Made by a program: the position numbers and the translations under genes
The notes under the pieces: model-generated
The model's input: the letters and a program-made list of their open reading frames with translations, nothing else
Database searches by the model: none
What the model was told of the DNA's origin: nothing
Source: a virus
Length of the DNA: 47,520 nt
Virus record (IMG/VR): IMGVR_UViG_3300032050_006297
Span: 1 to 47,520 of that record
Direction: 5' to 3' (one strand)
Part shown: positions 21 through 46,907 of the stretch, one piece after another
How positions within the stretch are numbered: the first letter of the stretch is position 1
Layout of the letters: every line of letters begins with the position of its first letter

Positions 21-2255
21 ATGAGTAATGTTATCACACTATTCGCAAATGCAGAGGCCACGCGCCCGCAAGAGCTTATAGACTTTACCGAGTATCTATA
101 CCTTATCAAGAATGGCCACTGGCAAGATGATGTAATAACCTTCAGAGCTATTCAAGACCCCGAAGAGCGCAAAGCCGCAAAGCGCAAGATCATTGCAGTG
201 ACTCCGAGCGGTGAGTTCACCGGGCGCGGTCAAGCCGGCCTGAAGAATCATAGCGGGCTTATTTGCATCGATGTCGATGACAAAGATAACGAAGGGCTTA
301 ACGAGAAAGTTCGAGCGCTTGTCGGTGATCCTTTTGTCTTTGCCTTCCATCAATCCCTCGGAGGGCTCGGATATGCTATCTACTTCAGGATAGAGCCGAC
401 AAAGCATTTAGACGCATACCTAGCCATAGAAAAATACCTCGCAGATACCTACCACCTCGTAGCCGACAAAGCTTGCAAAGATGTGACGCGCCTTCGCTTT
501 GTTTCTTTCGATCCGTTCCTACATAAAAACCCAAAAGAAGTACCCGTATTCAAGAAATACCTCAAAAAAGAGGCGCAAATTAGTACAAGAGTAATCCATG
601 CGCATACCTCAAAGGATATGGAGTTTATTATATCCCAGATCCGGAGCCGTCGCATCGATCTTACCGAATCGTATCACGATTGGATACAAATCGGCTTCGC
701 ACTCGCTGACCACTACGGCGAAGCAGGGCGCGATTACTTCCACGCGATAAGCGAGATGCACCCGGAATACAACGCGCAAAATACCGATGCAAAGTACGAT
801 AACTTCTTGAAAACAAACGACGGTAGCGTAGGTATCGCAACGCTATTCTTTAAGTGCAAAGAGCACGGTATTCAGTTCCAAACCGAAGAGACTCGCAAGG
901 TTGAAGTAATGACTACAGCGCGCCGAAAGGTCGATAAAGGAACGGATAAAGATATCACAGACTCAATTGTTAAGTTAGCAAAAGAGGAAGGCATAAGCGA
1001 AGAGCTTGCACGCGAAGTAGCCAAGCAAGTACAAGCCATGCCAAAGGAATCACTTAAAAAAGACCGCGAAGAGAATGTTATCCCTCTCATCAAAGCCGCG
1101 CTCGAAGCCTACGATATAAAAAAGAATGAAGTTACTCAAGAAATTGAGTACAAAGGGCGCCCGATGACTACAAGTAATCTTAATACCATCTGGTCCGAGA
1201 TAGCAACCGCTCTAGGCACCAAATGCACCCAGTCTCATGTAGATTCACTTATCCACAATGATAACACCCGCACATACAATCCATTCCTTGACTTCTTTGA
1301 GCGATACCAAGACCGCGAGATCAAGTACGGAACTATTGACCGCCTCATCGGGACCGTAACCGCTAGGCATATAGTAAACGAGAACGGCGAAGTAATAGAC
1401 CTCGGGCCTATGATTACTCAAATCTTTATACGCAAGTGGATAATAAGCCTCATAGCTTCCATGCACGGCACTTACTCGCTTCTTATCCTAGTGCTATGCG
1501 GTGAGCAAGGGCTAGGCAAAACCAACTTTTTTAGATGGCTACTACCTTCGGAGCTCCGAGACTATTACGGCGAGTCCAAACTTGACCGAGGCAAAGATGA
1601 TGAGATACTTATGTGTCGTAAACTGATCCTATGCGATGACGAGTTCTCAGGTAAGTCTAAAAACGAATACAAACTACTCAAGCAATACGCTTCGACTCAA
1701 TTCTTTAATCTTAGGCAACCCTACGGGCGCAAATTTGAAGATTATAGGCGATACGCCGTGCTTTGCGGTACTTCCAATGAGAATGAAGTGATTAACGATC
1801 CGACTGGTAACCGCCGTATTATTCCGATTAACCTAGTGAATATCGATTTCGGTGCTTACCGCGAAGTTGACAAGATAGACTTGCTCATGGAAGCTTATCA
1901 CATCTGGAAAACCGAAGGCGATGCCTCTTGGCAACTCAACAAAGGCGAAATAGCTCAACTATCAATGTCAAGCGCTGACAATGAGCAAGTAGATACAGCC
2001 GCCGAGGCGCTCGATGTGGTTTTCGAAAAACCAACAGCATTCGAGGGCACTTGGATGACTGCGACAGAGGTACGAGATACAATTATGAAGCATCTCGAGG
2101 TAAAATTTGCGGAAAACCGACTCGGGATAGCACTTGGGAAAGCGGGCTTCGAGAAGAAGAAAAAGAAGCTCAACGACATACCAAGAACGGTCTACCGCGT
2201 CAAGGTTCGCAAGCGTTTTGATACTTATGGCGATTATTCTCAAAAATCGGATTAA
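21..2255 (+). CDS. Primase-helicase, BT4734-like N-terminus, PriCT-2 and VirE domains (arm A)
   Basis: Replication protein expected to prime and unwind DNA. The 744 residues show a BT4734/BF3469-like N-terminal domain (about 20-185, with the CIDVDDKDN acidic motif and SLGGLGYAIYF), a PriCT-2-like segment (about 205-270, DWIQIGFALADHYGE) and a VirE-type helicase domain with Walker A GEQGLGKT near residue 493 and an acidic LCDDEFSGKS segment. This architecture is known from phages and elements of Bacteroidota. A homologue of similar length lies at 37336-39549 and aligns from start to stop, which supports both ends. The ATG follows AGAGAG. The gene heads the replication block of arm A; its natural upstream neighbours lie outside the window. 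Confidence 0.9.
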   Translation: MSNVITLFANAEATRPQELIDFTEYLYLIKNGHWQDDVITFRAIQDPEERKAAKRKIIAVTPSGEFTGRGQAGLKNHSGLICIDVDDKDNEGLNEKVRALVGDPFVFAFHQSLGGLGYAIYFRIEPTKHLDAYLAIEKYLADTYHLVADKACKDVTRLRFVSFDPFLHKNPKEVPVFKKYLKKEAQISTRVIHAHTSKDMEFIISQIRSRRIDLTESYHDWIQIGFALADHYGEAGRDYFHAISEMHPEYNAQNTDAKYDNFLKTNDGSVGIATLFFKCKEHGIQFQTEETRKVEVMTTARRKVDKGTDKDITDSIVKLAKEEGISEELAREVAKQVQAMPKESLKKDREENVIPLIKAALEAYDIKKNEVTQEIEYKGRPMTTSNLNTIWSEIATALGTKCTQSHVDSLIHNDNTRTYNPFLDFFERYQDREIKYGTIDRLIGTVTARHIVNENGEVIDLGPMITQIFIRKWIISLIASMHGTYSLLILVLCGEQGLGKTNFFRWLLPSELRDYYGESKLDRGKDDEILMCRKLILCDDEFSGKSKNEYKLLKQYASTQFFNLRQPYGRKFEDYRRYAVLCGTSNENEVINDPTGNRRIIPINLVNIDFGAYREVDKIDLLMEAYHIWKTEGDASWQLNKGEIAQLSMSSADNEQVDTAAEALDVVFEKPTAFEGTWMTATEVRDTIMKHLEVKFAENRLGIALGKAGFEKKKKKLNDIPRTVYRVKVRKRFDTYGDYSQKSD

Positions 2256-2260
2256 GGGTA

Positions 2261-2467
2261 GGTAGTAAGATCTCTTAAAAAAACGCCCTCCGTATATATA
2301 GACATGTATGTGTGTGTGTGTGTGTGTGTGTGTGCATGTGTATATATATAAAGTATATATATTATTATATTATCTTACTACCTTCGCTGTAAACGATTGA
2401 ATTTTAATAAACTTACACGGTAGCAAGTTCTAAAAAGAACCGACTACCAAACCGACTACCTACTACC
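2261..2467. repeat. Origin-like intergenic region with TTACTACC-type repeats (arm A)
   Basis: The 213-bp gap between the primase-helicase and the SF2 helicase holds repeats of one core. GGTAGTAAG lies at 2261-2269, CTTACTACC at 2374-2382, GGTAGCAAG (one change) at 2419-2427, CGACTACC at 2441-2448 and 2453-2460, and TACTACC at 2461-2467. AT-rich tracts lie between them. The same position in arm B carries a denser set ending in A instead of C. The site between two replication genes and the iteron-like structure suggest a replication origin; this is inference. Confidence 0.5.
2309..2334. repeat. (TG)13 microsatellite
   Basis: Thirteen TG dinucleotides in a row, flanked by ATGTA on the left and by CATGTG and (TA)n on the right, inside the origin-like gap. 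Arm B has no counterpart. Such tracts can form Z-DNA or slip during replication; a role in origin melting is only a possibility. Confidence 0.85.
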
Positions 2468-2468
2468 T

Positions 2469-3887
2469 GTGAATTTACGACCATATCAAGCCCTTGCAAT
2501 TGACAAACTTCGAGCCGCTTTTGGGCAAGGCCATAAGCGAGTGATACTATGCGCTCCGACCGGAGCGGGCAAGACGGTGATGTTCTCGGCTATCGCTCAT
2601 GGAGCTATGCAAAAGGGTAAGCGCGTCATGATCATAACCGACCGAGGCGAGTTGCTATGGCAAGCAGGCGGCGCGCTGAATAACCTCGCGATAGTTCCGG
2701 AACTCATTACCGCAGAGACCTCAAGGCTTAACTCAAGTCAGCGCATCTTCGTAGCCATGATCGAGACTATCTACCGCCGAAGAGAGCTACGAGAGTACAA
2801 GATGCTACTTGAGAGCGTGGATTTATTCATATTTGATGAGTGCCATAAGCGAACATTCGACAAGCTCCTCCCTTACCTACCTGAGTCAGCTTTTATTCTG
2901 GGAGCGACGGCAACCCCTTGGAGAGAGGGGAAGGGGACCGGTATGATAGATGTTTACTCGGCTATGGTGGAAGCTTCGACTATTCCGAGCTTAATCCATG
3001 ACGGCTATCTTGCGAAGCCCTCGTATTACTCAGTTCCGATAGACCTTAGCCAAGTGAAGACCAAAGGCGGTGACTATGATGCTGACTCGCTTGCTGATAT
3101 TTACTCGCGTTCGCAAATTTACAAGGGCGTAGTGACCAACTACAAGCGCTGGGCAAATGATAGCAAGGCGATTGTCTTCGCACCTAATTTGCGAAGCGCG
3201 GATGAAGTACTGCAAGAGTTTAAGTCTGAAGGTTTGCCCGCTTTGGCGCTTAGTGGCCTTGCGGGGCTTCAGGAGCGTCGAAACGCTCTCAAGTGGTATA
3301 AAGAGACGGCGGGCGCAATTTTAATCAATGTAGGCCTTTTTACCACGGGCTTTGATGAGCCGAGTATTGAGACGGTGATCTTATATCGTGCGACCAAGTC
3401 CTTGCCCTTATTTCTGCAGATGGTCGGGCGCGGTTCGCGAACATGCGAAGGCAAGACCGAATTCAAGGTCTTGGACTTCGGTAATAACCTTTACCGCTTT
3501 GGCATGTGGGATGAAGAGAGGGACTGGACAAAGCCACCTAAAAAGCCACGGGATGGGGTGGCAGTGTACAAGAATTGTCCTGAGTGTGATGCGTTCCTTT
3601 ACGCCTCGGCTCGCGAGTGTGAGTACTGTGGAGCAGAGATACCGAAAACAGAGCGCGAAGTTCTTGAAGAACTTGCTATATTGCAACCACACGAGGCTCG
3701 TTCTATGGCAAAGCTCGGAGGATTGCATGATTGGATAGCATTAACCAAGGCAAATAAATTGCACCCGCTCTATGTTCTACAAAGTTTATGTAAATTGCGA
3801 AGCGAAGCCGAAGCCTATCGCGATGCGATGGGATATGCGAAAGGTTGGTTATTTATTCACAAGGACAAGACGAGGCATTTGGTGTGA
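2469..3887 (+). CDS. Superfamily 2 DEAD/DEAH-type DNA helicase (arm A)
   Basis: ATP-dependent helicase of the SSL2/RecQ-like SF2 group, likely acting in phage DNA replication or repair. Walker A APTGAGKT is at residues 28-35, motif II DECH near residue 123 and the ATATP motif near residue 140. The C-terminal helicase half carries TTGFDEP and QMVGRGSR. A CPEC...CEYCG four-cysteine zinc ribbon follows near residues 369-387. The start is GTG at 2469. The homologue at 39793 begins with ATG at the same aligned residue, so this unusual start is well supported. Its stop overlaps the next start (GTGA). Confidence 0.92.
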   Translation: MNLRPYQALAIDKLRAAFGQGHKRVILCAPTGAGKTVMFSAIAHGAMQKGKRVMIITDRGELLWQAGGALNNLAIVPELITAETSRLNSSQRIFVAMIETIYRRRELREYKMLLESVDLFIFDECHKRTFDKLLPYLPESAFILGATATPWREGKGTGMIDVYSAMVEASTIPSLIHDGYLAKPSYYSVPIDLSQVKTKGGDYDADSLADIYSRSQIYKGVVTNYKRWANDSKAIVFAPNLRSADEVLQEFKSEGLPALALSGLAGLQERRNALKWYKETAGAILINVGLFTTGFDEPSIETVILYRATKSLPLFLQMVGRGSRTCEGKTEFKVLDFGNNLYRFGMWDEERDWTKPPKKPRDGVAVYKNCPECDAFLYASARECEYCGAEIPKTEREVLEELAILQPHEARSMAKLGGLHDWIALTKANKLHPLYVLQSLCKLRSEAEAYRDAMGYAKGWLFIHKDKTRHLV

Positions 3888-4051
3888 ACTACCGGCGCTT
3901 ATCTCAGGACTTTCTCGATGACATCGTGATGGAGCACGGCGTAAGCTACGATACGGCTCGCGTGTTATTCATGATGTGGCTTGTCGGTATGAAGCACTGG
4001 GAGCGTAAGTGTGATGCCTTGCTAGACTATTTGCTCAAGGATCAATCATGA
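3884..4051 (+). CDS. Small conserved protein of 55 residues (arm A)
   Basis: Unrecognised acidic-to-neutral helical protein. It begins at GTG 3884, overlapping the helicase stop as GTGA, and ends overlapping the nuclease start as ATGA. The counterpart at 41217-41378 shares DDIVME.GVS.D.ARV and the C-terminal YLL, and has the same overlaps, so the short gene is real although neither copy exceeds 60 residues. It may couple translation between helicase and nuclease or bind one of them; no function can be assigned. Confidence 0.72.
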   Translation: MNYRRLSQDFLDDIVMEHGVSYDTARVLFMMWLVGMKHWERKCDALLDYLLKDQS

Positions 4052-4371
4052 CTGAACACCAACTACAAACCCTATGCTTCACTTGGCATTGGAATAACCG
4101 CCCTGACGAGCGGGGCTTATTGTACATGAATCACAATAATCCTCGCGATGCTAGGCACGGCGCGAGTCTCAAAGTGATGGGTTTGGTGGCAGGCGTAGCT
4201 GACATGACATATATCCACCCCGACGGGTCAGGCGTAACCTTCTTAGAGTTCAAAGCCGAGAAAGGTAGGCAAAGCGCCTCGCAGGTTTGGTGGCAGTCAA
4301 CGGTCGAGCGATCAGGATGCAATTACAAGATTATCAAGAGTTTTGAAGATTTTAGAGAGTGCTTATTATGA
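4048..4371 (+). CDS. VRR-NUC domain nuclease (arm A)
   Basis: Compact 107-residue protein matching stand-alone phage VRR-NUC nucleases, which are PD-(D/E)XK-fold enzymes acting on branched or structured DNA. The core shows GVADMTY, then FLEFKAEKGRQS with the E-x-K pair, then QVWW. The N-terminal NNPRDARHGA segment is also typical. It follows the SF2 helicase and a small linker gene in both arms, which suggests a nuclease-helicase pair used in replication or recombination. ATGA overlaps at both ends point to translational coupling. The homologue is at 41371-41691. Confidence 0.82.
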   Translation: MTEHQLQTLCFTWHWNNRPDERGLLYMNHNNPRDARHGASLKVMGLVAGVADMTYIHPDGSGVTFLEFKAEKGRQSASQVWWQSTVERSGCNYKIIKSFEDFRECLL

Positions 4372-5126
4372 GGCATATCGGATTATTTGCGGGTATCGGA
4401 GGTTTTGAACTTGCCGCCCGTTGGATGGGATGGAATACCATTGCATGGAGTGAATGGGATCCATTTTGTCAAAAAGTATTATCTTACCACTTTCCCGAGG
4501 CGAAAGGCTATGGAGACATCAAGCAAGCAGACTTTACACAATACCGAGGGCAATGCGACATCCTTACAGGTGGATTCCCATGTCAGCCATACAGCGTCGC
4601 AGGCAAGCGACTCGGCAAAGAAGACGAGCGACATCTTTGGCCGGAAATGCTTAGGGTTATTAGAGAAGTACGGCCGAGGTGGATTATTGGAGAGAATGTT
4701 CGCGGGCTACTTAGTTGGAATGAAGGGGTGGTATTCGAAGAGGTGTGCACTGACTTGGAAAGTGAAGGATACGAAGTCCAAGCGTTTATTATTCCAGCTG
4801 CAGGCGTCGGCGCTCCCCACCGAAGAGAAAGAGTTTGGATTGTTGCCAACGCCGAAAACACAAGACTCTCGACATGCTTTGAGGGATCGAGGCAAGAGCA
4901 ATTTAGGCGAAGAGATGAGCGAACTAGCTTTTCAGAACACTGGGAAAACTTCCCAACTATCTCCCCTGTTTGTGGAGGAGATGATGGGCTTCCCTCGGAA
5001 TTGGACGGTATTACCATTCCAAAGTGGAGAAAGGAAAGCATAAAAGCGTATGGTAATGCGATAGTACCTCAAGTTGCTTATCAATTATTCCAAGCAATAA
5101 AAAATACTAAGTCCCTTGATTATTAA
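4368..5126 (+). CDS. C5 cytosine-specific DNA methyltransferase (arm A only)
   Basis: SAM-dependent DNA methyltransferase, likely protecting phage DNA from host restriction. The 252 residues contain the family motifs in order: GLFAGIGGFE (SAM binding), GGFPCQPYSVAGKR with catalytic Cys near residue 71, GENVRGLL (motif VI), APHRRERVW (motif VIII) and YGNAIVPQVA (motif X). The target-recognition segment is short, so the protein is smaller than typical bacterial Dcm enzymes. ATG 4368 overlaps the nuclease stop; an upstream GTG at 4359 is possible but less likely. No endonuclease partner is visible. Arm B lacks this gene. A second long reading frame runs through it. Confidence 0.93.
   Translation: MRHIGLFAGIGGFELAARWMGWNTIAWSEWDPFCQKVLSYHFPEAKGYGDIKQADFTQYRGQCDILTGGFPCQPYSVAGKRLGKEDERHLWPEMLRVIREVRPRWIIGENVRGLLSWNEGVVFEEVCTDLESEGYEVQAFIIPAAGVGAPHRRERVWIVANAENTRLSTCFEGSRQEQFRRRDERTSFSEHWENFPTISPVCGGDDGLPSELDGITIPKWRKESIKAYGNAIVPQVAYQLFQAIKNTKSLDY
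4510..5043 (+). CDS. Overlapping gene inside the C5 methyltransferase gene (177 residues)
   Basis: A long open frame lies wholly inside the methyltransferase gene in another phase. It is open from TTG 4387 (218 residues); ATG 4510 gives a METSSK start. The protein is not low-complexity: it carries FGRKCLGLLEK, a W-rich WYSKRCALTWKVKDTKSKRL, FQLQASALPTEEKEFGLLPTPK and the C-terminal FVEEMMGFPRNWTVLPF. From general knowledge of phage proteins, sequences with LTWK...FQL...GLLPTP...MMGFP..W recur next to or over phage C5 methyltransferases, so I infer a true dual-coding gene. Its function is unknown. No clear ribosome-binding site marks the start, and a conservation test is decisive. Confidence 0.5.
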   Translation: METSSKQTLHNTEGNATSLQVDSHVSHTASQASDSAKKTSDIFGRKCLGLLEKYGRGGLLERMFAGYLVGMKGWYSKRCALTWKVKDTKSKRLLFQLQASALPTEEKEFGLLPTPKTQDSRHALRDRGKSNLGEEMSELAFQNTGKTSQLSPLFVEEMMGFPRNWTVLPFQSGERKA

Positions 5127-5135
5127 CTAACTTTG
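5107..5135 (+). promoter_or_regulatory. Putative promoter before the methyltransferase gene (CTAAGTCC box plus TAACTTTG)
   Basis: CTAAGTCC at 5107-5114, thirteen bases, then TAACTTTG at 5128-5135, a match to the TAnnTTTG -7 element of Bacteroidota-type promoters. The same CTAAGTCC box lies fourteen bases before TATATTTG at 7699 and 44826. It overlaps the end of the C5 methyltransferase gene and would drive the genes from 5164 onward. It is absent in arm B where the methyltransferase gene is missing. Confidence 0.5.
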
Positions 5136-5163
5136 TTGTATACAATTATTTACGGAGTGTAAG

Positions 5164-5745
5164 GTGGAGCATTTTTATCAAACGATTAACGGCTGGTGTG
5201 ATTATGAGGACATATATCGCGAGGCCATAACAAGATCTGAAGACGGTGCGGTCTTTGTTGAGATTGGAGCGTTCAAAGGCAAGAGCGGAGCTTTTGCCGG
5301 TGTGGAGATTCTGAATAGTGGCAAGAAGATTATGCTTAACTTAGTGGATCACTTTAAGGGCAATACAGAGCACTTAGATGTCAAGTCCACATGGTATGAG
5401 TCCGAGCTTGCGCAAAACCCTGAATACCTATTCGAGCTTTGCACAAAGAACTTAGAGCCGGTCAAGGATGTGGTGAATATCATTAGAAGGAGCTCAGTCC
5501 AAGCGGCTAAGCAGTTCAAAGCTAATAGCTTAGACTTCATCTTTATTGACGGTTCGCATGATACCGTCTCGGTATGTCTTGATATTGATACATGGTTCCC
5601 TAAATTGAAAGTAGGTGGTATCATTGCAGGACATGACTACAAGTCGCATAGAGAAGTAGAGATTGCAGTTAATTCAAGATTCCCTATAGGAGTGCATAAG
5701 CGCGGGGCTTCTTGGCTATTTTACAAAGAAGGAGAGTTTAAATGA
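5164..5745 (+). CDS. Class I SAM-dependent methyltransferase, Methyltransf_24 type (arm A)
   Basis: Small-molecule or sugar methyltransferase of the Methyltransf_24 group. It shows FVEIGAFKGKS (SAM-binding motif I), then VDHFKG after the second strand, DFIFIDGSHD and GGIIAGHDY. The start is GTG 5164 after a GGAG; the arm B homologue starts with ATG at the aligned residue (NHYYQ). The target is unknown. Because glycosyltransferase genes follow in both arms, it may modify a glycan rather than DNA. Its end overlaps the next ATG. Confidence 0.85.
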   Translation: MEHFYQTINGWCDYEDIYREAITRSEDGAVFVEIGAFKGKSGAFAGVEILNSGKKIMLNLVDHFKGNTEHLDVKSTWYESELAQNPEYLFELCTKNLEPVKDVVNIIRRSSVQAAKQFKANSLDFIFIDGSHDTVSVCLDIDTWFPKLKVGGIIAGHDYKSHREVEIAVNSRFPIGVHKRGASWLFYKEGEFK

Positions 5746-6065
5746 CGAAGATTGAGATTAGCGGAGAGGTTTGCTTTGCGGGTCAGCCCGTCAAGTATTC
5801 GGACAAATTTACAAAGGCCGAGATCGTGATTAAGGATACGACAAGTAAGTATCCAGAGTTTATCAAGTTCGAGGCTATTAATGACAAAGTGGAAATGCTG
5901 AGAGGATTCCAAGTAGGAATGCAAGTTACGGCTGAAGGTTTTGTAGGTGGTAAGGAATATACCAACAAAGAGGGCAAGATCGGATATATCACAAGTATCA
6001 AGCTTGCCAAGATTTACGAGAACAAACCGCAGGCCGAGGCCGTTCCCGATGCTATACCATTTTGA
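5742..6065 (+). CDS. DUF3127 protein, single-stranded-DNA-binding-like (arm A)
   Basis: The 107 residues match DUF3127, small OB-fold-like proteins common in phages of Bacteroidota and thought to act like SSB. Features are the KIEISGEV start, a basic-acidic core (SKYPEFIKFEAINDK) and a C-terminal tip DAIPF. That tip resembles the acidic DDDIPF tail by which bacterial SSB recruits partner proteins. The arm B copy keeps both core and tip. It sits in the replication block and overlaps its neighbours by 4 and 17 bases. The SSB role is family-based inference. Confidence 0.8.
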   Translation: MTKIEISGEVCFAGQPVKYSDKFTKAEIVIKDTTSKYPEFIKFEAINDKVEMLRGFQVGMQVTAEGFVGGKEYTNKEGKIGYITSIKLAKIYENKPQAEAVPDAIPF

Positions 6066-6306
6066 AGACCCTGAAGAGATGCCGACTCTTGAATGGGAAG
6101 ACCTAGGCAAGAACGGCTATAAAACGGAACTCACTAAAAACGGCGTGCCTTTCGAGGCGCGCTTGTTTGAGTCCGAGAAAGCGTGGAAGCTGAAGCTAAC
6201 TAACAAGATGACTGGCAAGTATGCGCTTGAGCTTCGCTTTAGGAACTTGACGCTTAACGATGCAATGGTAAAGGCCGAGTTTTACATATTGGAGAACTTG
6301 CAATGA
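6049..6306 (+). CDS. Conserved hypothetical protein of 85 residues (arm A)
   Basis: Unrecognised. The start is taken as ATG 6049 because the arm B homologue (42580-42840) begins at the same residue (MLYHF) and similarity is absent upstream. It overlaps the 3' end of the DUF3127 gene by 17 bases in both arms. Conserved blocks are KNGVPFEARLF, WKLKLTNK and LELRFRN...NDAMVKAEFYILENL. It looks like a small alpha-beta fold without catalytic motifs. The constant link to DUF3127 suggests a partner in single-strand DNA handling, but nothing shows this directly. Confidence 0.75.
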   Translation: MLYHFEDPEEMPTLEWEDLGKNGYKTELTKNGVPFEARLFESEKAWKLKLTNKMTGKYALELRFRNLTLNDAMVKAEFYILENLQ

Positions 6307-6935
6307 GATTAGAGGTTATCATTCCCTATCGGAATCGAGAAGAGCATGTATCAAAGCAAGTGCCTCATTTGTGGAAGGTGCTAACAGACCAAGGGCTAGA
6401 CTTTGGTATTACGATTGTAGAGCAAGAGGAAGGCAAGCTATTCAATACCGGCATGATGAAAAACATCGGTTATTTAGAGTCCGAGTTTGCAGACTATTAC
6501 TGTTTTCATGATGTGGATATGTATGCTGAAGATGTGGATTACTCATATACCGATATGCCTACGCACTTGGCTTATGCAGTTGAACAATTTGGCTACGAGT
6601 TACCCTATCCGACTTTTTTCGGTGGTGTGACTCTATTCGACAAAGCAAGCTATCGAAAGATAAACGGCTACTCTAATGAGTATCTTGGCTGGGCTGCAGA
6701 CGATGACGATCTTTACCTTCGAGTTATCAAGATCGGATTCAAGCGCCGCTTCGGTAGGTTCTGGAGTGATGACCACGATAGGACAAACTACCCGGAATGG
6801 CAAGCGGATAACTTGCGAAAATTAAAGGAGCTGGCATCGCGTCCAGAGGTTAGCGGGCTTAATACGGCCGAATATACCGTTAAGGGTGTGAAGCAATATA
6901 ACGAAAGACTTCGCACTATTTTAGTATCTATTTAA
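6303..6935 (+). CDS. GT7-like (beta-1,4-galactosyltransferase-type) glycosyltransferase (arm A)
   Basis: Sequence follows the animal-type beta-1,4-galactosyltransferase (GT7) pattern: VIIPYRNREEH at the N-terminus, KLFNTGMMKNIGY, FHDVDMYAED (the metal-binding DVD), PYPTFFGGVTLF, and NGYSNEYLGWAADDDDL, which matches the GT7 W-G-W-x-x-D/E-D-D-D region. It would transfer a sugar from a nucleotide-sugar donor. The acceptor is unknown; a host surface glycan, phage DNA or virion protein are all possible. No signal peptide or membrane segment is seen, so the enzyme is cytoplasmic. The homologue is at 43432-44067. ATG overlaps the preceding stop. Confidence 0.83.
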   Translation: MRLEVIIPYRNREEHVSKQVPHLWKVLTDQGLDFGITIVEQEEGKLFNTGMMKNIGYLESEFADYYCFHDVDMYAEDVDYSYTDMPTHLAYAVEQFGYELPYPTFFGGVTLFDKASYRKINGYSNEYLGWAADDDDLYLRVIKIGFKRRFGRFWSDDHDRTNYPEWQADNLRKLKELASRPEVSGLNTAEYTVKGVKQYNERLRTILVSI

Positions 6936-6948
6936 TGGATCAAATCAG

Positions 6949-7218
6949 ATGAAGGAAACACTCAAGACTTTTGTGCCTTTGCTCGCGCTCTCAGTGATTG
7001 CACTCGGCGCGACTTTAGGAGTCGGAGATGGGAGCTTTAGCACATTCGCGGTCGGTCTTAGCAAGTATGCTCTTGCAGTTGGGGCGGCGTGGTTTGTGGA
7101 TTCTTACCTAATTAAGGAGGTCAATACTCGTGAAATTATCAGTACGAACCCTATCGCTTACGCTTTGTTTTTGGCTGCTAACATCCTTACAGCCGCTCTC
7201 TGCTTCTCTCAGTCCTAA
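6949..7218 (+). CDS. Small membrane protein, probable holin (arm A)
   Basis: The 89 residues hold about three hydrophobic segments: TFVPLLALSVIALGATLG, a middle stretch around YALAVGAAWFV, and AYALFLAANILTAALCF. This size and topology fit a holin that permeabilises the inner membrane at lysis. The endolysin gene starts inside it, and its last 89 bases are read in two frames. The arm B copy at 44079-44345 is very similar and has exactly the same overlap. Other small membrane proteins at 7817 and 8110 compete for the holin role, so the assignment rests on position. Confidence 0.6.
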   Translation: MKETLKTFVPLLALSVIALGATLGVGDGSFSTFAVGLSKYALAVGAAWFVDSYLIKEVNTREIISTNPIAYALFLAANILTAALCFSQS

Positions 7219-7687
7219 AGTTCTCACGATAGCCAAAGGATTTATAGGCACGAAAGAAGAGGGCAATAACGGCGGGTATTGGATTACTCGTTTCCAGCGC
7301 TCGACCAAATCGCCAAAGGGCGCGCAGTGGTGCGCTTCATTCGTGAACTTTTGCTTAGACTCGGCTGGTGTGAAGGGCTTGCCGTTTACAGGATCAGGGC
7401 TTGCGCGTCATTTTGCTACACGCAACAAAACGATCAAGGCTACTGAAGTGATAGCTAAGAATATGGAGCTACCACCGGGCACGATTATTGTATGGCGAAG
7501 AGGAACGACCCCTTTTGGACATGCGGGAATAGTGGACAAGTGGAAAGGCAGGCGAGGGACTACGGTTGAAGGGAATACGAGTTCAGGGCTTCGAGGGTCC
7601 CAGCATGATGGGGACGGGGTTTGGGCACGATCAAGGGTAATCAATCCGACTAATTACTTCAGGATCACAGATTTTGTTATCTATTAA
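7130..7687 (+). CDS. Secreted endolysin, CHAP/C40-like cysteine peptidase (arm A)
   Basis: Cell-wall lytic enzyme. The first 26 or so residues form a signal peptide (basic MKLSVR, hydrophobic LTLCFWLL, LSAS end), followed by a catalytic domain with GAQWCASFVNFC (nucleophile Cys near residue 68), FGHAGIV (catalytic His near 131) and TVEGNTS. CHAP/NlpC-like amidases or endopeptidases cleave peptidoglycan stems or bridges. The start is GTG 7130 with a strong AAGGAGG ribosome site inside the holin-like gene. The signal peptide suggests Sec export, so lysis timing may depend on the membrane protein encoded in the overlapping frame. The homologue is at 44257-44814. Confidence 0.86.
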   Translation: MKLSVRTLSLTLCFWLLTSLQPLSASLSPKVLTIAKGFIGTKEEGNNGGYWITRFQRSTKSPKGAQWCASFVNFCLDSAGVKGLPFTGSGLARHFATRNKTIKATEVIAKNMELPPGTIIVWRRGTTPFGHAGIVDKWKGRRGTTVEGNTSSGLRGSQHDGDGVWARSRVINPTNYFRITDFVIY

Positions 7688-7698
7688 AAATAAAATTT

Positions 7699-7728
7699 CT
7701 AAGTCCCTTGACATAACACTTATATTTG
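7699..7728 (+). promoter_or_regulatory. Putative late promoter (arm A)
   Basis: CTAAGTCC (7699-7706), fourteen bases, then TATATTTG (7721-7728), a perfect TAnnTTTG -7 element. It lies between the endolysin stop and the first late gene. Arm B preserves the box, spacing and -7 element (44826-44855) although the spacer sequence differs, which argues for function. A TTGACA at 7708-7713 is too close to the -7 element to act as its -35 and is absent in arm B. Confidence 0.62.
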
Positions 7729-7733
7729 TTTTG

Positions 7734-7801
7734 CCGACATAGGCACTCCTAATCTCATGCCTTCACTCCGCGAGCGCCTCTCCTAGAGGGGCGCTTGTTT
7801 T
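7734..7801 (+). ncRNA. Putative short late-leader RNA (arm A)
   Basis: Transcription from TATATTTG should begin near 7734 and meet a strong terminator ending at 7801, giving an RNA of about 68 nt. Its 5' half (ATAGGCACTCCT...TGCCTTCACTCCGCG) is nearly invariant between the arms and can fold as AGGCA/TGCCT with CTCCT in the loop. CACTCC occurs twice and is complementary to GGAGTG, seen before several starts in this genome. It resembles the lambda 6S leader RNA in position. The start site and existence of the RNA are inferred. Confidence 0.45.
7773..7801 (+). terminator. Intrinsic terminator directly after the late promoter (arm A)
   Basis: Ten-pair stem AGCGCCTCTC / GAGGGGCGCT with one G-U pair, loop CTA, then TTGTTTT. 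The arm B equivalent has a different but equally paired stem and the same TTGTTTT tail, so pairing rather than sequence is conserved. It would stop late transcription unless antiterminated. Confidence 0.8.
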
Positions 7802-7816
7802 AATACGATAGATACG

Positions 7817-8113
7817 ATGGACATACTAAGCGAATTACTGCGGAATGTACTAGCTACATTAGTCTCAACGGTTACGATAGTGGTGATGTTCTTTAGGTTT
7901 ATGAATCGCGAGCGCTTACAGCATGCAAAGCAGATAGCCGAGGTTATTGAGAAAACTGCAAAGCATGTATTCAATACTTCGACTCTCGAGCATCGTGTAC
8001 AAATGCTTGAGAAGCAAGAGAAAGAGCAAGCGGAAAGTATTAAAGAGCAATTTACCCTAATCCACTCAAGACTCGATCAAATCTACTCAATCATTGCAGG
8101 CCTTCATAAGTGA
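7817..8113 (+). CDS. Membrane-anchored coiled-coil protein, 98 residues (arm A)
   Basis: One N-terminal membrane segment (about residues 8-27, LRNVLATLVSTVTIVVMFF) is followed by a charged helical region from about 45 to the end (EHRVQMLEKQEKEQAESIKE) that should form a coiled coil. This shape resembles XhlA-like or spanin-like lysis accessory proteins, though no family motif is certain. It is the first gene after the late promoter-terminator module. The homologue at 44942-45238 is highly similar. The following gene starts by GTGA overlap, so the two membrane proteins are probably made together. Confidence 0.7.
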   Translation: MDILSELLRNVLATLVSTVTIVVMFFRFMNRERLQHAKQIAEVIEKTAKHVFNTSTLEHRVQMLEKQEKEQAESIKEQFTLIHSRLDQIYSIIAGLHK

Positions 8114-8310
8114 GTTTGCATTTTGGCTTCAAATATTGGAACGAGCCTACACCCGCGAAGATTCGTAGGGTCGCTAGTGCTTTGGCCGCTGCTGGTATTG
8201 CCGGGTGCGGTTTTGCCTATTTGAGGGATAACATGACACTTGCGATTACGCTCTTGAGCCTTGCGGTTGGTGGATCTTTTATTGCTAAGTTATTTACGGA
8301 CAAGCCATGA
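8110..8310 (+). CDS. Two-helix membrane protein, holin-like (arm A)
   Basis: The 66 residues hold two predicted membrane helices (ALAAAGIAGCGFAYL and LAITLLSLAVGGSFIA) joined by a short RDN turn, after an N-terminal region with basic residues. This is the layout of small class II holins. The start is GTG 8110 overlapping the previous stop. Arm B carries an almost identical copy (45235-45435), the most conserved small protein between the arms. It could be the true holin, or an antiholin working with the protein at 6949. Confidence 0.66.
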   Translation: MSLHFGFKYWNEPTPAKIRRVASALAAAGIAGCGFAYLRDNMTLAITLLSLAVGGSFIAKLFTDKP

Positions 8311-8642
8311 GGAATAAGCTTAACTTAAAGATATATCGTGGTGAAACCTTTAACTATGTGATTGCATTAAAGAGCGCGGGGGTTGCGATTGATTTGACTG
8401 GTTGCACTTTGCTCGCACAATGCAGAGATAAGAGTACAAATGCAGTTGTATTTACTTTTGTTAGCACTTTGGATGTGCCTAGCACGGCGGGTAAATTTAT
8501 ACTCAATCTAAGTGCAAGCGCCTCGGCTGCTTTGACACCTTCAAGAAATTTATATTACGATGTTAAGATCACCTTCCCAAGTTTTGAGATAGTGCGATGG
8601 GTTCAAGGTGATGTAACCATATTAGATACGGTGACCGCATGA
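8307..8642 (+). CDS. Tail or baseplate protein, BppU N-domain-like (arm A)
   Basis: The 111-residue beta-rich protein has the pattern of small phage tail accessory domains: IYRGETFNYVIALK, AIDLTGCTLLAQCRDK, a GKFILNLSASAS strand and YYDVKI...W..GDVTI. This resembles N-terminal domains of receptor-binding or baseplate upper proteins, which attach fibres to the tail tip. It precedes three fibre-like genes and overlaps both neighbours by ATGA. The homologue at 45432-45773 keeps the frame but is clearly diverged (for example KDGDGAAISLVNA), as expected for an adhesion module. Confidence 0.6.
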   Translation: MRNKLNLKIYRGETFNYVIALKSAGVAIDLTGCTLLAQCRDKSTNAVVFTFVSTLDVPSTAGKFILNLSASASAALTPSRNLYYDVKITFPSFEIVRWVQGDVTILDTVTA

Positions 8643-8926
8643 GCTTAGTGAATGTAGGCGATGTATTTGTAGAATGGAATGGGATTCTAAACACTGCTAA
8701 TTCAGCAGCTTTTGTCTTTGGTGAAACTCCGAGCGGAGCGGTCAATGGATCAAATGCAACCTTCACAAGTTTGCAAAATTTCGTACCTCAAAGCGTTCAA
8801 GTATTCATCAACGGTGTATCTCAGACGAACGGCGTTGACTATACGACATCAAGTACTTCAACAATTACAATGAATGTTAGCCCCGTATCAGGTGACTATA
8901 TTAGAATAAATTATAAAGTAGGATAA
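8639..8926 (+). CDS. Small fibre-associated beta protein, 95 residues (arm A)
   Basis: Nearly the whole protein is one repeat-like domain: FVFGETPSGAVNGSNATFT, VQVFINGV, DYTTS...TITM and GDYIRINYK. The same domain forms the C-terminus of the next gene product (FVFEEIPSGSINGSNVTFT ... LNGVRLKSG ... DYTLS). So one structural unit exists both free and fused in neighbouring genes. It is likely a virion decoration or fibre-tip domain. Arm B has the same pair at 45770 and 46077. Confidence 0.65.
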   Translation: MSLVNVGDVFVEWNGILNTANSAAFVFGETPSGAVNGSNATFTSLQNFVPQSVQVFINGVSQTNGVDYTTSSTSTITMNVSPVSGDYIRINYKVG

Positions 8927-8930
8927 TACA

Positions 8931-9755
8931 ATGCCAGAAACTACAATAGCAGGCCGCCAGATACGCGATGGAGCGATAACTAATGCGAAGGTCGCAGCGG
9001 GCGCGGCAATAGATTCAAGCAAACTTGCAGACGGCGCGAACTTCACTAAAAAAGATGGATCGGTTGCTTTTACAGGTAATCAGTCTATGGGTAATAACAA
9101 GCTTACCACTATTGCGACTCCGACTGATTCAGGCGATGCGGCTAATAAAGCATATGTAGATACGCAAATAGCTGGATTATCAAGTGCTTACAAGTATCGC
9201 AATGTTCATGCGGCTACAACTGCTGATATTAATTTAAGCAATCCCGGAACGGATACTTTTGATGGTCATCAGCTTACAAGCGGTCAGCGCTTGCTTGTAT
9301 GGCAAGAGAGCACAGCGAGTGCAAACGGTATCTATGTTTTCAACGGATCTTCAAGCGCTCTCACTCGTGCAACTGATTCGGATGCTTGGGATGAGCTTAC
9401 AGGTACTTTTGTATATGTAGATCAGGGCACTACTTATGGCGATAAGCGCTTCTTTTGTACAAGCAATTCAGGCGGAACGCTTGGAAGTACAGCGGTCACT
9501 TATGTGCAAGATATATCAGGTACTTTGAGTCCGAGTAACTTCGTATTTGAAGAGATTCCAAGCGGCTCAATAAACGGATCGAATGTTACTTTTACAATCA
9601 GTGCAACTCCGACAACGGGAACGCTTCGCTTGTATTTGAACGGAGTGCGACTGAAGAGCGGCGCGGGTAATGATTACACGCTTTCAACGAATACTATAAC
9701 AATGACAACCGCTCCAATTAGTGGAGATGTTTTACTAGCTGACTTCTTGAAGTAA
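8931..9755 (+). CDS. Tail-fibre-like protein, 274 residues (arm A)
   Basis: The N-terminus (TTIAGRQIRDGAITNAKV..., AAIDSSKLADG) and the repeat-like middle (SVAFTGNQSMGNNKLTTI, ANKAYVDTQI) are typical of phage tail fibres and side fibres, with short motifs that trimerise. The last 75 residues repeat the domain of the preceding small protein. It likely forms part of the host-recognition apparatus. The arm B homologue at 46077-46901 has the same length (274 residues), with substitutions spread along it. The spacing to neighbours is only a few bases, so it belongs to the late operon. Confidence 0.78.
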   Translation: MPETTIAGRQIRDGAITNAKVAAGAAIDSSKLADGANFTKKDGSVAFTGNQSMGNNKLTTIATPTDSGDAANKAYVDTQIAGLSSAYKYRNVHAATTADINLSNPGTDTFDGHQLTSGQRLLVWQESTASANGIYVFNGSSSALTRATDSDAWDELTGTFVYVDQGTTYGDKRFFCTSNSGGTLGSTAVTYVQDISGTLSPSNFVFEEIPSGSINGSNVTFTISATPTTGTLRLYLNGVRLKSGAGNDYTLSTNTITMTTAPISGDVLLADFLK

Positions 9756-9757
9756 TT

Positions 9758-10579
9758 ATGCCACAAACAAAATTAAATAATACTCAACTGCCTAACACGA
9801 TTAGTAGCAAGACAATTGATAGTAGCAATACAATCAATACGGATCTAACTAAGTTATCGGTTGCAGGTGGTACGAATGGTCAAGTATTAAGCACCAACGG
9901 AAGCGGGTCGCTATCTTGGGCTACGGCTGGTGGTGGTGGTGTCAGTGATGGAGATAAAGGCGATGTAACCGTATCTAGTTCAGGTGCAACTTGGACAATA
10001 GATAACGGCGCGGTAAGCTATGCAAAGATTCAAGATGTATCGGCTACTTCGCGCTTGCTTGGTAGAGCTAGTGCAGGCGCTGGTGATGTCGAAGAGATTA
10101 CAATAGGTAGCGGTTTAACTTTGACTGGCACTACCCTATCTGCGAGCGGTGGTGGTGGGGGGCTTGGCGCTCCAACTTATGTAGTAACTAAAACTGCAGA
10201 TGAAACAGTTACTAGCTCTACGACTTTGCAAGATGATGACCACTTATATCAAGCATTGACAAGCGGTAAAAGTTATTGGATAGAATTCAAATTTCTAATT
10301 ACAAGAACAGATACTACTAATACGCCTACATTAGCAATTGCAGTAGATGGTAATAGCGAAGGGTATGTAGATGCAACGACTTTAGCAAATGGGACTACTA
10401 GTCTATCTCTTGGTAATGTATCGAATAATTCTGGCATTCCAAGAAGACAATTATCTACTACGGCGCTAAAACTTTCAACAAACTATACTGTCAAACTTAA
10501 ATGGGCTCAAAATGCATCAAGTGCAACTGGTACAACTTTGATGAAAGGTAGCCAAATGATTATATGGGAGGTTGCATAA
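9758..10579 (+). CDS. Tail-fibre-like protein, 273 residues (arm A N-terminus)
   Basis: Low-complexity, Gly/Ser/Thr-rich fibre protein. The N-terminal LNNTQLPNTISSKTIDSSN is followed by [24 protein letters not shown] and GDKGDVTVSSSGATWTIDNGAVSYAKIQ, a pattern shared by many fibre proteins. A glycine stretch (GGGGGL) leads into a C-terminal globular region from about residue 145. From 10244 the DNA is identical to the last 127 bases of the window, while the part before is diverged between arms. The arm boundary therefore falls inside the C-terminal domain of this gene. Confidence 0.75.
   Translation: MPQTKLNNTQLPNTISSKTIDSSNTINTDLTKLSVAGGTNGQVLSTNGSGSLSWATAGGGGVSDGDKGDVTVSSSGATWTIDNGAVSYAKIQDVSATSRLLGRASAGAGDVEEITIGSGLTLTGTTLSASGGGGGLGAPTYVVTKTADETVTSSTTLQDDDHLYQALTSGKSYWIEFKFLITRTDTTNTPTLAIAVDGNSEGYVDATTLANGTTSLSLGNVSNNSGIPRRQLSTTALKLSTNYTVKLKWAQNASSATGTTLMKGSQMIIWEVA
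10244..10370 (+). repeat. 127-bp exact repeat, internal copy
   Basis: Identical over 127 bases to 47394-47520, the very end of the window. The base before differs (C at 10243, T at 47393). The repeat lies inside a tail-fibre gene and has no mobile-element features. It is best explained as an assembly-graph join between strain variants. Confidence 0.9.
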
Positions 10580-29865: not shown

Positions 29866-29921
29866 ATGCTCTGGGGGGAGGCATACGGCTATGATAGGCC
29901 GCTGATTGCAATATACAAAAA

Positions 29922-29950
29922 AAAAGGCTACCTTCCCCGGGTAGCCTTTT
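29922..29950. terminator. Strong intrinsic terminator closing the late operon
   Basis: GGCTACC / GGTAGCC stem with loop TTCCCCG, a T-run on one side and an A-run on the other, so it may act in both directions. It separates the late genes from the early promoter near 30222. Confidence 0.85.
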
Positions 29951-29994
29951 CGCACGCCAATGCTTTGAGTATTTGGCCACCTGCAAAATTGAGC

Positions 29995-30207
29995 ATGATG
30001 ACAAACAAATATACTAAAATGATTCAAATAGAAATACATAAAATTTCAGGCCAGAGCTACCGCGCCGCCGTGCCCTCTCTAAATGCTGTCGTTAATCTTG
30101 CCGAAATTTGCGACATAAAGAAAATTTTTATTTTCGCCATAACTCCCCGCGAATTCAACTACTTACGCTCGCTTGACCTACCCTCGAAAGTGAAAATAAT
30201 CAGATAA
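29995..30207 (+). CDS. Doubtful small ORF between terminator and early promoter
   Basis: The frame is open from 29866 but its first part is the terminator, so a start at ATG 29995, 29998 or 30019 is more reasonable. The longest choice gives 70 residues with the body MIQIEIHKISGQSYRA and IKKIFIFAITPREFNYLRSL. No ribosome site and no family are seen. If real it is made from a promoter not found here. The 449-base stretch 29844-30292 otherwise holds two hairpins and the early promoter. Confidence 0.35.
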   Translation: MMTNKYTKMIQIEIHKISGQSYRAAVPSLNAVVNLAEICDIKKIFIFAITPREFNYLRSLDLPSKVKIIR

Positions 30208-30534: not shown

Positions 30535-30638
30535 AAAAAAGATTAGAACTAAAGCTATGGCATGGCGTGGTATTTATCATACTCGCACACTACATTCTTA
30601 ACCGGTTCGAAATGCACATGTACGGAGCGCTGCAATGA
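30531..30638 (+). CDS. Single-pass membrane peptide, 35 residues
   Basis: Basic N-terminus (MKKRLELKLW), then a short hydrophobic segment (GVVFIILAHYIL) and a polar end (NRFEMHMYGALQ). ATGA overlaps at both ends couple it to its neighbours. It may act with the previous peptide in the membrane. No family was recognised. Confidence 0.52.
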   Translation: MKKRLELKLWHGVVFIILAHYILNRFEMHMYGALQ

Positions 30639-30847
30639 GTGACTGGCTGACTATTCGCGAGGCCGCCGAATTATTCCAAGTATCGCGAAGACTCTTGCAC
30701 TATATGGCCGTCGGACGGCCTGCAAGCAATGAAAGGAATGAGAAAGAAGCGGTGCTAAGAAAAGTAAAGCAAGTACCGTACGGCGAAAAGAGAATGTATT
30801 TACTAAATTATAATGAATTAAAAAGAATACTAGGAGTAAAAAGATGA
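30635..30847 (+). CDS. HTH_17/excisionase-like DNA-binding protein
   Basis: The 70 residues match MerR-like helix_turn_helix_17 domains: WLTIREAAELFQVSRRLLHYM is the winged-helix core, followed by a basic wing with K/R residues and YLLNYNELKRIL at the end. Excisionases and small phage regulators share this fold. Without a visible integrase, a transcriptional or replication role is more likely than excision. ATGA overlap with the following recombinase gene. Confidence 0.78.
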   Translation: MSDWLTIREAAELFQVSRRLLHYMAVGRPASNERNEKEAVLRKVKQVPYGEKRMYLLNYNELKRILGVKR

Positions 30848-31737
30848 GACTAATCACACAAACAGGCGGGATGCAAGTAAACGGGCTCAATGTCCTAATC
30901 TACGGCGATCCCGGAATCGGTAAGACCACACTCGCGAATACCGCGCCGAATCCAATTGTATTGGACTTCGACAGAGGGCTTCACCGCTCCTCACTACTCA
31001 AGAATGGTCTTCAGTTCGAATCATGGCAAGATTTGCTTAATAACAAGGCCGAACTAGATAGCATCCTAGCCAAGCATGATACTATTATTATCGATACGGC
31101 GGGCACTGTTATTGAGCTTATGCAGATGCACCTTACTATCAATAACCCTGGTCTTCTTCGCAATACGATCAAGCTATGGGGCGAAACAAAGCGAACATTT
31201 CAAGAGTTTTTTACGCCTCTGAAGTTAAGCGGTAAAAATGTAGTCTTCATAGCACATGCCAAAGAGAAAGAAGAAGGCGATATGCGAATTAAGCGCCCTC
31301 TCATACCGGGTGCAAGTTATGACCTCTTAATGCAATCATGCGACCTAGTAGGATACTATACTACGCAAGGCAATAAGAGAGTATTGACCTTTGACCTTAG
31401 TGATAGCATTGTAGCTAAAAATTGCGCGGAAATAGCACCCGTACATGTAGATGGCTTGCACTCAATGACTACTTGCCTTGCAGATATCTTAGAACATACC
31501 AAATCGGCAATAAGCAGACGCTCCAAAGAGCAAGAGGCAGCAATCGCCTTGGTATCAGAGTGGAGCGAAAAAGCAAAAGCCGCAAAGGATGCTAATAAAT
31601 TTGTAGCAGAGCTTAGCAAAGCAGGCCTCGAGGATGCTTTGAAGCGTGCGGTTTGGGCTTCAGTAGTAACTACTTTTGGAGAGCGTGGCTTGCAATGGAA
31701 TAAAGAGAGTGGTAAGTTTGAGGAGGTTGTAAAATGA
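30844..31737 (+). CDS. Sak4-like single-strand annealing recombinase (AAA_24 ATPase)
   Basis: RecA-core ATPase of 297 residues. Walker A YGDPGIGKTTL lies at about 20-30, the acidic LDFDRG near 40, Walker B TIIIDTAGT near 83, and VVFIAHAKEKEEGD further on. The N-terminal layout matches the phage nucleotide-binding family that includes Sak4, which anneals single strands with SSB help. It is followed by a PD-(D/E)XK exonuclease gene after four small genes, the classical exonuclease-annealase pair. A C-terminal helical extension (SKEQEAAIALVSEWSEKA) is unassigned. Confidence 0.85.
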   Translation: MRLITQTGGMQVNGLNVLIYGDPGIGKTTLANTAPNPIVLDFDRGLHRSSLLKNGLQFESWQDLLNNKAELDSILAKHDTIIIDTAGTVIELMQMHLTINNPGLLRNTIKLWGETKRTFQEFFTPLKLSGKNVVFIAHAKEKEEGDMRIKRPLIPGASYDLLMQSCDLVGYYTTQGNKRVLTFDLSDSIVAKNCAEIAPVHVDGLHSMTTCLADILEHTKSAISRRSKEQEAAIALVSEWSEKAKAAKDANKFVAELSKAGLEDALKRAVWASVVTTFGERGLQWNKESGKFEEVVK

Positions 31738-39549: not shown

Positions 39550-39576
39550 ATTTAACAAAAACTGCCCTATTCAAAA

Positions 39577-39790
39577 TGTAGTAAGACTTAGCAAAAAAAA
39601 GCCCTAAAACTATTATACAATTACATATACATATAGGCCAATATACTAGTACTCTTATTATTCTATAATAGTTTATTTTAAATATTTACTTACTACACTT
39701 ACTACACTTATGTAAGTCACTAAATTACAACAACTTACGATGTAGTAAGACTTAAAAAACTCTTACTACACTCTTACTACACTTACTACA
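39577..39790. repeat. Origin-like region with seven CTTACTACA 9-mers (arm B)
   Basis: Exact CTTACTACA lies at 39689-39697, 39698-39706, 39762-39770, 39773-39781 and 39782-39790, and its complement TGTAGTAAG at 39577-39585 and 39741-39749. Both complements extend to the 14-mer TGTAGTAAGACTTA. The block fills the gap between primase-helicase and SF2 helicase with AT-rich sequence between the clusters. It is most likely an iteron-type origin. The last repeat ends two bases before the helicase ATG, so the binding protein could also control that gene. Confidence 0.68.
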
Positions 39791-39792
39791 TT

Positions 39793-41220: not shown

Positions 41221-41378
41221 CTACCGAGCAATGGCTTAACGATATGATAGACGATATAGTCATGGAATACGGCGTGTCTCATGATATTGCAAGGGTTATG
41301 CTGTATGCTTGGCTTGCAGAGGTTTTGCGCTGGAGTCCGAAGTTTTACGCTATGATGGAGTATTTGCTGAATGAGTGA
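41217..41378 (+). CDS. Small conserved protein of 53 residues (arm B)
   Basis: Counterpart of 3884-4051. It reads MTTEQWLNDMIDDIVMEYG, then VSHDIARVM and a C-terminal EYLLNE. It overlaps the helicase stop by ATGA and the next gene by 8 bases. Conservation of reading frame, length and placement in both arms is the evidence for a gene. Function unknown. Confidence 0.7.
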   Translation: MTTEQWLNDMIDDIVMEYGVSHDIARVMLYAWLAEVLRWSPKFYAMMEYLLNE

Positions 41379-41691
41379 GCAACAACTACAAGCGCACTGT
41401 TTTACATGGCATTGGAATAATTGCCCTGAAGAGCGCGGGCTTTTGTACATGAATCACAATAACCCCCGCGACGCGAGGCAAGGCGCTCAGCTTAAGGTGA
41501 TGGGTATGATATCGGGCGTTGCAGATATGACTTACCTATCCAAGAGCGGTCCGATATTCTTGGAGTTCAAGACCGCGACGGGACGGCAAACAGACCGCCA
41601 AAAGTGGTGGCAGGCGCAAGTCGAAGCGGTGGGGTATCGATATTGCATAATAAGAAATTTCGAAGAGTTTGTAAAGTCCATAGATATTTGA
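41371..41691 (+). CDS. VRR-NUC domain nuclease (arm B)
   Basis: The 106-residue homologue of 4048-4371 has the core GVADMTYL, the E-x-K in FLEFKTATGRQT and KWWQAQ. The N-terminal half is almost unchanged from arm A (TWHWNN, LLYMNHNNPRDAR). In this arm the methyltransferase gene at 41705 follows directly; there is no C5 DNA methyltransferase or promoter in between. Confidence 0.82.
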   Translation: MSEQQLQAHCFTWHWNNCPEERGLLYMNHNNPRDARQGAQLKVMGMISGVADMTYLSKSGPIFLEFKTATGRQTDRQKWWQAQVEAVGYRYCIIRNFEEFVKSIDI

Positions 41692-41704
41692 GTATATTAC
41701 ACTT

Positions 41705-44067: not shown

Positions 44068-44078
44068 GAATAATCACA

Positions 44079-44814: not shown

Positions 44815-44825
44815 AAATAAAATTT

Positions 44826-44855
44826 CTAAGTCCGTTTTACTTGTGCTTATATTTG
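44826..44855 (+). promoter_or_regulatory. Putative late promoter (arm B)
   Basis: CTAAGTCC (44826-44833), fourteen bases, TATATTTG (44848-44855). Box, spacing and -7 element match the arm A promoter although eleven of the fourteen spacer bases differ. Confidence 0.62.
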
Positions 44856-44860
44856 TTTTG

Positions 44861-44929: not shown

Positions 44930-44941
44930 AAGATAGATACA

Positions 44942-46072: not shown

Positions 46073-46076
46073 TACG

Positions 46077-46901: not shown

Positions 46902-46907
46902 TAAGAG

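Follow-up and report, generated by a model that had tools for sequence, protein, structure and literature searches.

A conserved promoter-terminator unit ahead of the late genes of a phage group and its predicted small leader RNA

The late operon of the phage analyzed here is headed by a compact promoter-terminator unit, and as sequence anatomy we hold this unit to be well established, with high confidence. It was found in a window of 47,520 bases, i.e. the whole stretch of DNA that was analyzed (positions 1-47,520 of IMG/VR record IMGVR_UViG_3300032050_006297). A small RNA is its expected product, as an earlier note on this DNA had claimed, and promoter, leader and covarying terminator together support that expectation; its predicted length is ~69 nt. 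Because promoter, leader and terminator follow one another in this way, late transcription is probably attenuated. Our best reading, which we put just short of an even call, is a late promoter that is attenuated and gives rise to a small RNA as well, the latter possibly damping early genes. Anatomy, conservation, covariation and an in-silico pairing bias of the leader were computed.

The record itself is a chimera, in which about 10 kb of one phage is joined to a relative, with the junction near 10 kb. Self-alignment of the window identified positions 1434-10370 and 38734-47520 as alleles of one genome part. The contig joins two strains because 1-9.9 kb follows relative G001, which aligns in pieces at 85-95% identity, while 10.6-47.4 kb follows G010, which aligns at about 90-94% over most of this length. 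Relatives whose end repeats match measure 33.4-38.1 kb. Each of 11 other records has a single match to the core pattern of the leader, and the window has two. The element had previously been placed in both arms of the phage; two copies are indeed present, but they are two strains' alleles of one locus and not two arms of one phage. We take the leader pair to be a natural allele pair, useful for comparison, rather than two switches in one phage. Completeness estimates based on this chimeric record would mislead.

The element is flanked by the endolysin gene on one side and the late operon on the other. Just upstream lies a CHAP endolysin gene (7130-7687, plus strand; PHROGs, Pfam), and an 89-aa protein, also upstream, is probably holin-like, judging from its position. 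The first gene of the late operon (7817-8113, plus strand) encodes 98 aa with no assigned function and follows the element in relatives as well. Genes for the 98-aa and a 66-aa protein, tail genes, terminase, portal and capsid genes continue to about 29.8 kb, all on the plus strand. The late operon comprises about 22 kb. The early module, from about 30.2 kb, encodes an HTH protein, a Sak4-like annealase, p205 (weakly similar to a CRISPR-associated PHROG), a primase, a helicase and an SSB/DUF3127 protein. Two of its genes are candidate targets of the leader RNA: that of the Sak4-like ssDNA annealing protein (30844-31737, plus strand; phrog_124, 1.6e-45) and the SSB/DUF3127 gene (5742-6065, plus strand), of which the second strain's copy starts about 42273. 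The HTH protein of 70 aa (30635-30847, plus strand) is encoded near the start of the module. Among the early genes, only those for the HTH protein, Sak4, p205 and SSB have a match in all 10 relatives, the HTH match in G006 and G007 covering 26 residues only. G004-G007 have no match to the window's primase and helicase, while they keep the late module and the element. Between 33778 and 35457 the early module further comprises a DUF3440/PAPS-reductase-like gene, matched in G005 only, and an ectoine synthase gene (PF06339, 5e-41) with no match in the 10 relatives.

The late promoter (7696-7728, plus strand) is of the Bacteroidota sigma type, with a -33-like TTTC (7696-7699) within TTTCTAAGTCC and the -7 element TATATTTG (7721-7728). 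The earlier note had reported CTAAGTCC-N14-TATATTTG in both copies, and a pattern search of the window allowing <=3 mismatches found it at 7699-7728 and 44826-44855, both exact (0 mismatches), where chance gives a mean of 0.63 matches at <=3 mismatches. The second match falls within the promoter of the second strain's allele (44823-44855, plus strand, pattern match). According to PMC6847099, the Bacteroidota promoter consensus is TTTG/TANNTTTG, with the G of TANNTTTG at -5. The late promoter fits this consensus. If the TANNTTTG rule is applied (G at -5, as given in PMC6847099), the predicted +1 is 7733, correcting a start previously put near 7734, and this base is the first of the 5' hairpin here and likewise in most near-clade relatives. 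CTAAGTCC is kept in the near clade only, while distant relatives carry a TTTTTGCG-like -33 or TTTG and a -7 element that often deviates from TAnnTTTG. The sequence of the -33/-7 spacer is variable between strains, and no conserved element was found in it among the strains compared.

Another Bacteroidota-type promoter (TTTC..TATATTTG, 30034-30006) lies on the minus strand, with a strong terminator (29951-29915) within ~60 bases downstream of it; this unit at 29915-30034, between the late and early modules, might encode a second small RNA. While promoters of the phage are Bacteroidota-like, about half of the early genes in 11 phage genomes have GGAG Shine-Dalgarno (SD) sites, and members of the Bacteroidota are said to lack SD sites (PMC6847099).

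From the predicted +1, the leader is expected to start with the 5' hairpin GCC-GACATA-GGC (7733-7744, plus strand; RNA folding), followed by the unpaired conserved core ACTCCTAATCTCATGCCTTCACTCC (7745-7769, plus strand; conservation and RNA folding) and by an intrinsic-terminator hairpin of 13 bp with a loop of 3 and a U tail (7770-7801, plus strand; RNA folding and covariation). RNA folding left the core unpaired and gave the 13-bp hairpin at 7770-7798 plus U tail, with -27.9 kcal/mol and a z of -3.7. The leader of the second strain's allele (44860-44928, plus strand) folds into a hairpin at 44860-44871, a core at 44872-44896 and a terminator at 44897-44928, with a z of -4.0. With 95% identity between 7719-7776 and 44846-44903, the leader is conserved, as had been observed before. 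Among relatives, the terminator hairpin has 12-13 bp and follows 25 unpaired bases. Sequences of the 5' hairpin vary (GCC..GGC, GCACUCUUGUGC, UGCAAA..UUUGCA); in four loci (L093, L111, L113, L114) the sequence is another one and the pairing is kept, while clade D (L230-L236) is without this hairpin. In four loci of that clade (L230, L233, L234, L235), the stretch from the endolysin terminator to the conserved element holds an additional unit of a promoter-like sequence and a terminator whose U tract is long, and these phages may thus make two leader RNAs in tandem.

The conserved CUUGU that follows the GC stem finds its pairing partner in the GCRRG of the stem base; in clade D this partner is ACGAG, and L111 has a U-A in place of a C-G pair at the stem base. 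The two stems had been described as sharing no sequence: the stems quoted are present, but the stem base GCRRG/CUUGU is common to both. Full pairing and covariation, claimed as well, were confirmed. Across 12 distinct sequences, 144 of 144 stem cells are paired, and 13 cells have changes on both sides of the stem, which 0 of 500 shuffles reach, cells here counting related sequences and not events. The covariation score is 0.481 vs 0.254 +/- 0.031 in shuffles (0/500), and all slid registers give much lower values. If stem pairs are counted, 4 of 12 changed on both sides, a number reached by 66 of the 500 shuffles. Within the U tract a conserved G pairs into the stem base, and termination may therefore be partial.

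The core reads CTCATGnCTT(n)CTCCGC in most clades and CTCATGCTCCTTCTCC in most of clade D. Reverse-complemented to GCGGAG(nn)AAGnCATGAG, it resembles a translation start region, i.e. a ribosome binding site (RBS) and start codon (GGAG..ATGAG), and no conserved reading frame was found in the core across the clades compared. While the core is constant, the promoter spacer varies and the stem changes freely with its pairing kept. This pattern points to the RNA, and not to the promoter spacer, as the conserved part. Two other uses of the core were considered and rejected: a minus-strand gene beginning within the core (read by eye, that frame runs only briefly or meets a stop immediately), and a competing antiterminator hairpin of CUCC with the stem-base GGRG, which is short and inseparable from the stem's own pairing.

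To what extent related phages share the element had been proposed as a check, and a covariance model tested on 41 related loci found core and hairpin in 40 of them (E <= 0.012). Versions of eight of these (L321, L322, L325-L327, L330-L332) were held out of the model; they gave E values from 9.6e-6 to 0.012 and are also supported by position. The 41st locus, L329, is on the same contig as L236, where a variant element (CTCTTCAGGCTTCCTTCTCC..hairpin..CTTGTTTT) is seen by eye. Nine loci from contigs that share only such an endolysin (L239-L247) gave no match to the model up to E = 1. In Rfam, no match to the element exceeded the gathering cut-offs, the best local scores of 12.9-15.5 bits being far below, and blastn found no copy in 50,697 phage records. 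In IMG/VR, the exact CTAAGTCC-N14-TATATTTG occurs in 46 stretches, near relatives mixed with others, and the core pattern in 74; among newly fetched loci with the core pattern, those bearing the hairpin belong to this group of phages, and the others seemed unrelated. A more stringent pattern gave 2 matches in 84,980 genomes, one on a Rhodobacteraceae and one on a Spirochaetales contig, which from a rough expectation we took as chance and rejected as true copies. Since only these 2 chance-level matches and no relative of the 98-aa late protein turned up among the 84,980 genomes, no host copy or prophage was found. This group of uncultured phages has no close relative in the searched collection of annotated phages, and a literature search found no such element for a Bacteroidota phage, which is not proof of absence.

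Pairing of the core with translation starts was analyzed in 11 genomes, with start sites chosen by an SD-favoring rule and RNA duplex energies computed with each phage's own leader core. Generic anti-SD pairing is inflated here because the start-choice rule favors SDs. Start regions are favored over random segments in 11 of 11 genomes, the value of the real leader being equaled by 0-2 of 80 shuffles in each, and as the leaders are homologous and represent 4 clades, these per-genome tests are not independent and have little power. Over 422 orthologous windows each, the mean z was -0.76 at start regions vs -0.03 inside the same genes. Ranking of 33 gene sets present in >=3 clades gave z values of -6.4 for Sak4, -5.4 for p165, -5.2 for SSB, -4.4 for p273, -4.2 for tail assembly and -3.3 for p205, the lowest in-gene control being -1.6; p165, p273 and the tail-assembly gene are late genes that score as well. 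With the anti-SD CUCC and the anti-start CAU fixed in the shuffles, Sak4 reached -3.9 and SSB -3.7, thus the signal exceeds generic anti-SD pairing. Both pair better than other GGAG starts (Sak4, p 1.6e-4; SSB, p 8e-4; relatedness uncorrected).

GGAG is present in 47-65% of early starts vs 12-38% of late genes. With free shuffles, the preference for early over late genes was matched by <=2 of 100 in 9 of the 11 genomes, and no clear early preference appeared in G000 (8/100) and G008 (22/100). With the motifs fixed, it was strong in G001, G002, G004, G006, G007 and G009 (0, 4, 5, 0, 1 and 4 of 100, respectively) and weak in G000, G003, G005, G008 and G010 (31, 10, 10, 43 and 15 of 100). When leaders were swapped between clades, the best overall fit was that of each leader with its own clade (rank 1 of 24 permutations, p about 0.04). 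Tested gene by gene (8 genes, 7-8 genomes), the permutation p was 0.005 for Sak4, 0.013 for SSB and 0.015 for p165, with the remaining five genes at 0.32-0.82, values uncorrected for relatedness and for eight tests. The near-clade core CUUCACUCC matches GGAGUGAAG ahead of many near-clade ssb genes, while some near-clade SSB RBSs break the match. The leader core of clades B-D is without the inserted AC, and GGAGAA(A/G) is found there at ssb or sak4 in several genomes; in clades other than the near one, CUUCUCC or CUUUCUCC pairs with GGAGAA(A) before these genes. In L236 CTCATG is lost and the SSB duplex reaches only -11.7. Single best sites genome-wide were unexceptional, with 3 of 11 genomes in which the leader was ahead of every one of 12 shuffles; on the plus strand of the first 37.2 kb, its matches were weaker than the best of 5 out of 5 shuffled leaders; and the in-register match to start codons was modest (z 0.3-3.3). 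Complementarity of the core to early-gene start regions is a possible second function, one that goes beyond the earlier note.

Under the reading we prefer, host RNA polymerase would initiate at 7733 and most transcripts would end at the hairpin, about 7801, yielding the ~69-nt RNA. Once released, this RNA would begin with the small 5' hairpin, continue with the conserved core of 25 unpaired bases and end in the terminator hairpin. The same hairpin would bar early as well as basal late-promoter transcripts from the late operon, and late expression would depend on polymerase read-through, be it by leakage, template build-up or a further factor. The core of the released RNA would pair with GGAG...AUGAG-rich starts of phage mRNAs, chiefly early ones (Sak4-like recombinase, SSB), and late-promoter activity would thereby also damp early protein synthesis. 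Termination in vivo, stability of the RNA, repression and timing are the parts we infer. With roughly even chances or less, a short RNA acting in trans on early starts would be the best explanation of the conservation. One might go further and speculate that the terminated leader is a dedicated RNA that, after activation of the late promoter, base-pairs with the RBSs of the Sak4-like annealase, SSB and possibly p205 genes and silences them, co-evolves with these sites clade by clade and forms an RNA-based early-to-late switch; in this strong form we consider the idea rather doubtful. Joint control of sak4 and ssb would make sense, because Sak4 and its SSB are described as a working pair in phage HK620 (PMC5928155).

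A purely lambda-like attenuation is the competitor to be taken most seriously, unlikely as we judge it. An antiterminator would load promoter-proximally, the core would be its RNA/DNA recognition site (nut/put-like) and the short RNA would be a by-product. In lambda, the Q-binding element lies in the promoter spacer and the 6S RNA has ~194 nt. As in lambda pR'-tR', where Q antiterminates, a promoter, a short leader and an intrinsic terminator, the latter predicted here from the covarying hairpin and U tail, lie directly ahead of the late operon, before its first gene. Such a location, with about 22 kb of late genes on a single strand behind it, a promoter of the host housekeeping type that would be on early if unblocked, and a core at +13 to +37, just before the terminator, all suit such a mechanism. 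In contrast to lambda, however, the promoter is of the -33/-7 Bacteroidota type, the conserved sequence is in the RNA instead of the spacer, the predicted leader has ~69 nt, the lysis genes lie upstream instead of downstream, and no Q-like gene was recognized. Scans of 37 window proteins with PHROGs and 20 with Pfam gave no match to an antiterminator family, many proteins being without any family. Of the pR'-tR' likeness drawn earlier, the architecture stands, while Q-type antitermination stays hypothetical. Small early DNA-binding proteins had been named as antiterminator candidates, and one such protein, the HTH protein at 30635-30847, has matches in 10 of 10 relatives tested; it would be the only conserved small regulator-like candidate for read-through control, and as an antiterminator it stays putative. 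Such attenuation furthermore does not explain why the core prefers start regions and early genes.

An ordinary operon boundary, i.e. a leaky terminator of the lysis operon next to a constitutive late promoter, with the leader kept for RNA stability or through recent descent, is quite improbable. In the near clade, no further terminator lies on the way from the endolysin gene into the late operon, and the G in the U tract that might make termination partial would fit a leaky end. However, clade D has its own terminator with a perfect U tract after the endolysin gene and yet keeps the element, the core is conserved while stem and promoter spacer are not, and a promoter upstream of the hairpin is unexpected for a plain operon end. 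We give very little weight to leader-peptide attenuation, in which the core ATG would open a short ORF (MPSL...) whose translation sets termination: an ATG is present in the core of most sequences and the ORF of the window ends inside the hairpin, but frame and peptide change between clades (CCTTCACTCC vs CCTTCTCC), L236 has no ATG and no SD lies ahead. That the two leader copies of the record represent a real two-copy switch in one genome, or that the whole feature is an assembly artifact, is hardly credible in view of the single copies in 11 other records, the strain change near 10 kb and the presence of the element in many other contigs.

Small RNAs with comparable properties are known from bacteria and their phages. 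RsaE and AbcR are bacterial sRNAs with unpaired C-rich anti-SD seeds for the RBSs of many mRNAs. The leader would resemble this type in its unpaired pyrimidine-rich seed complementary to RBSs, and differs from it as a phage element without an Rfam match. StxS of Stx phages is the closest precedent: according to PMC7873438, PR' and tR' delimit the region that gives rise to this sRNA, which binds the RBS of stx1 and so represses the gene, and it is further described to act on stx1B and rpoS and to bind Hfq (PMC7873438, PMC12197685). In the phage studied here, the predicted transcript is likewise bounded by late promoter and leader terminator, a small RNA that, by its sequence anatomy, would be a by-product of attenuation. 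As far as those reports describe StxS, it differs in phage and sequence, and the candidate targets here belong to the phage itself, namely its sak4-like and ssb genes. IsrK of Gifsy-1 is reported to activate the read-through mRNA of its own promoter and, by this route, an antiterminator (PMC4825925). One promoter giving both a terminated sRNA and a read-through mRNA would be the common feature, while a read-through-mRNA target of the kind described there for IsrK was not seen here.

Late-gene control is little known in phages outside well-studied hosts, and a compact element conserved across several clades offers a testable late switch in this phage group. If true, our reading would add a further case, beside StxS, of a late-leader RNA that is used as a regulator. 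If the RNA does silence early genes, one promoter would turn the late program on and the early program off.
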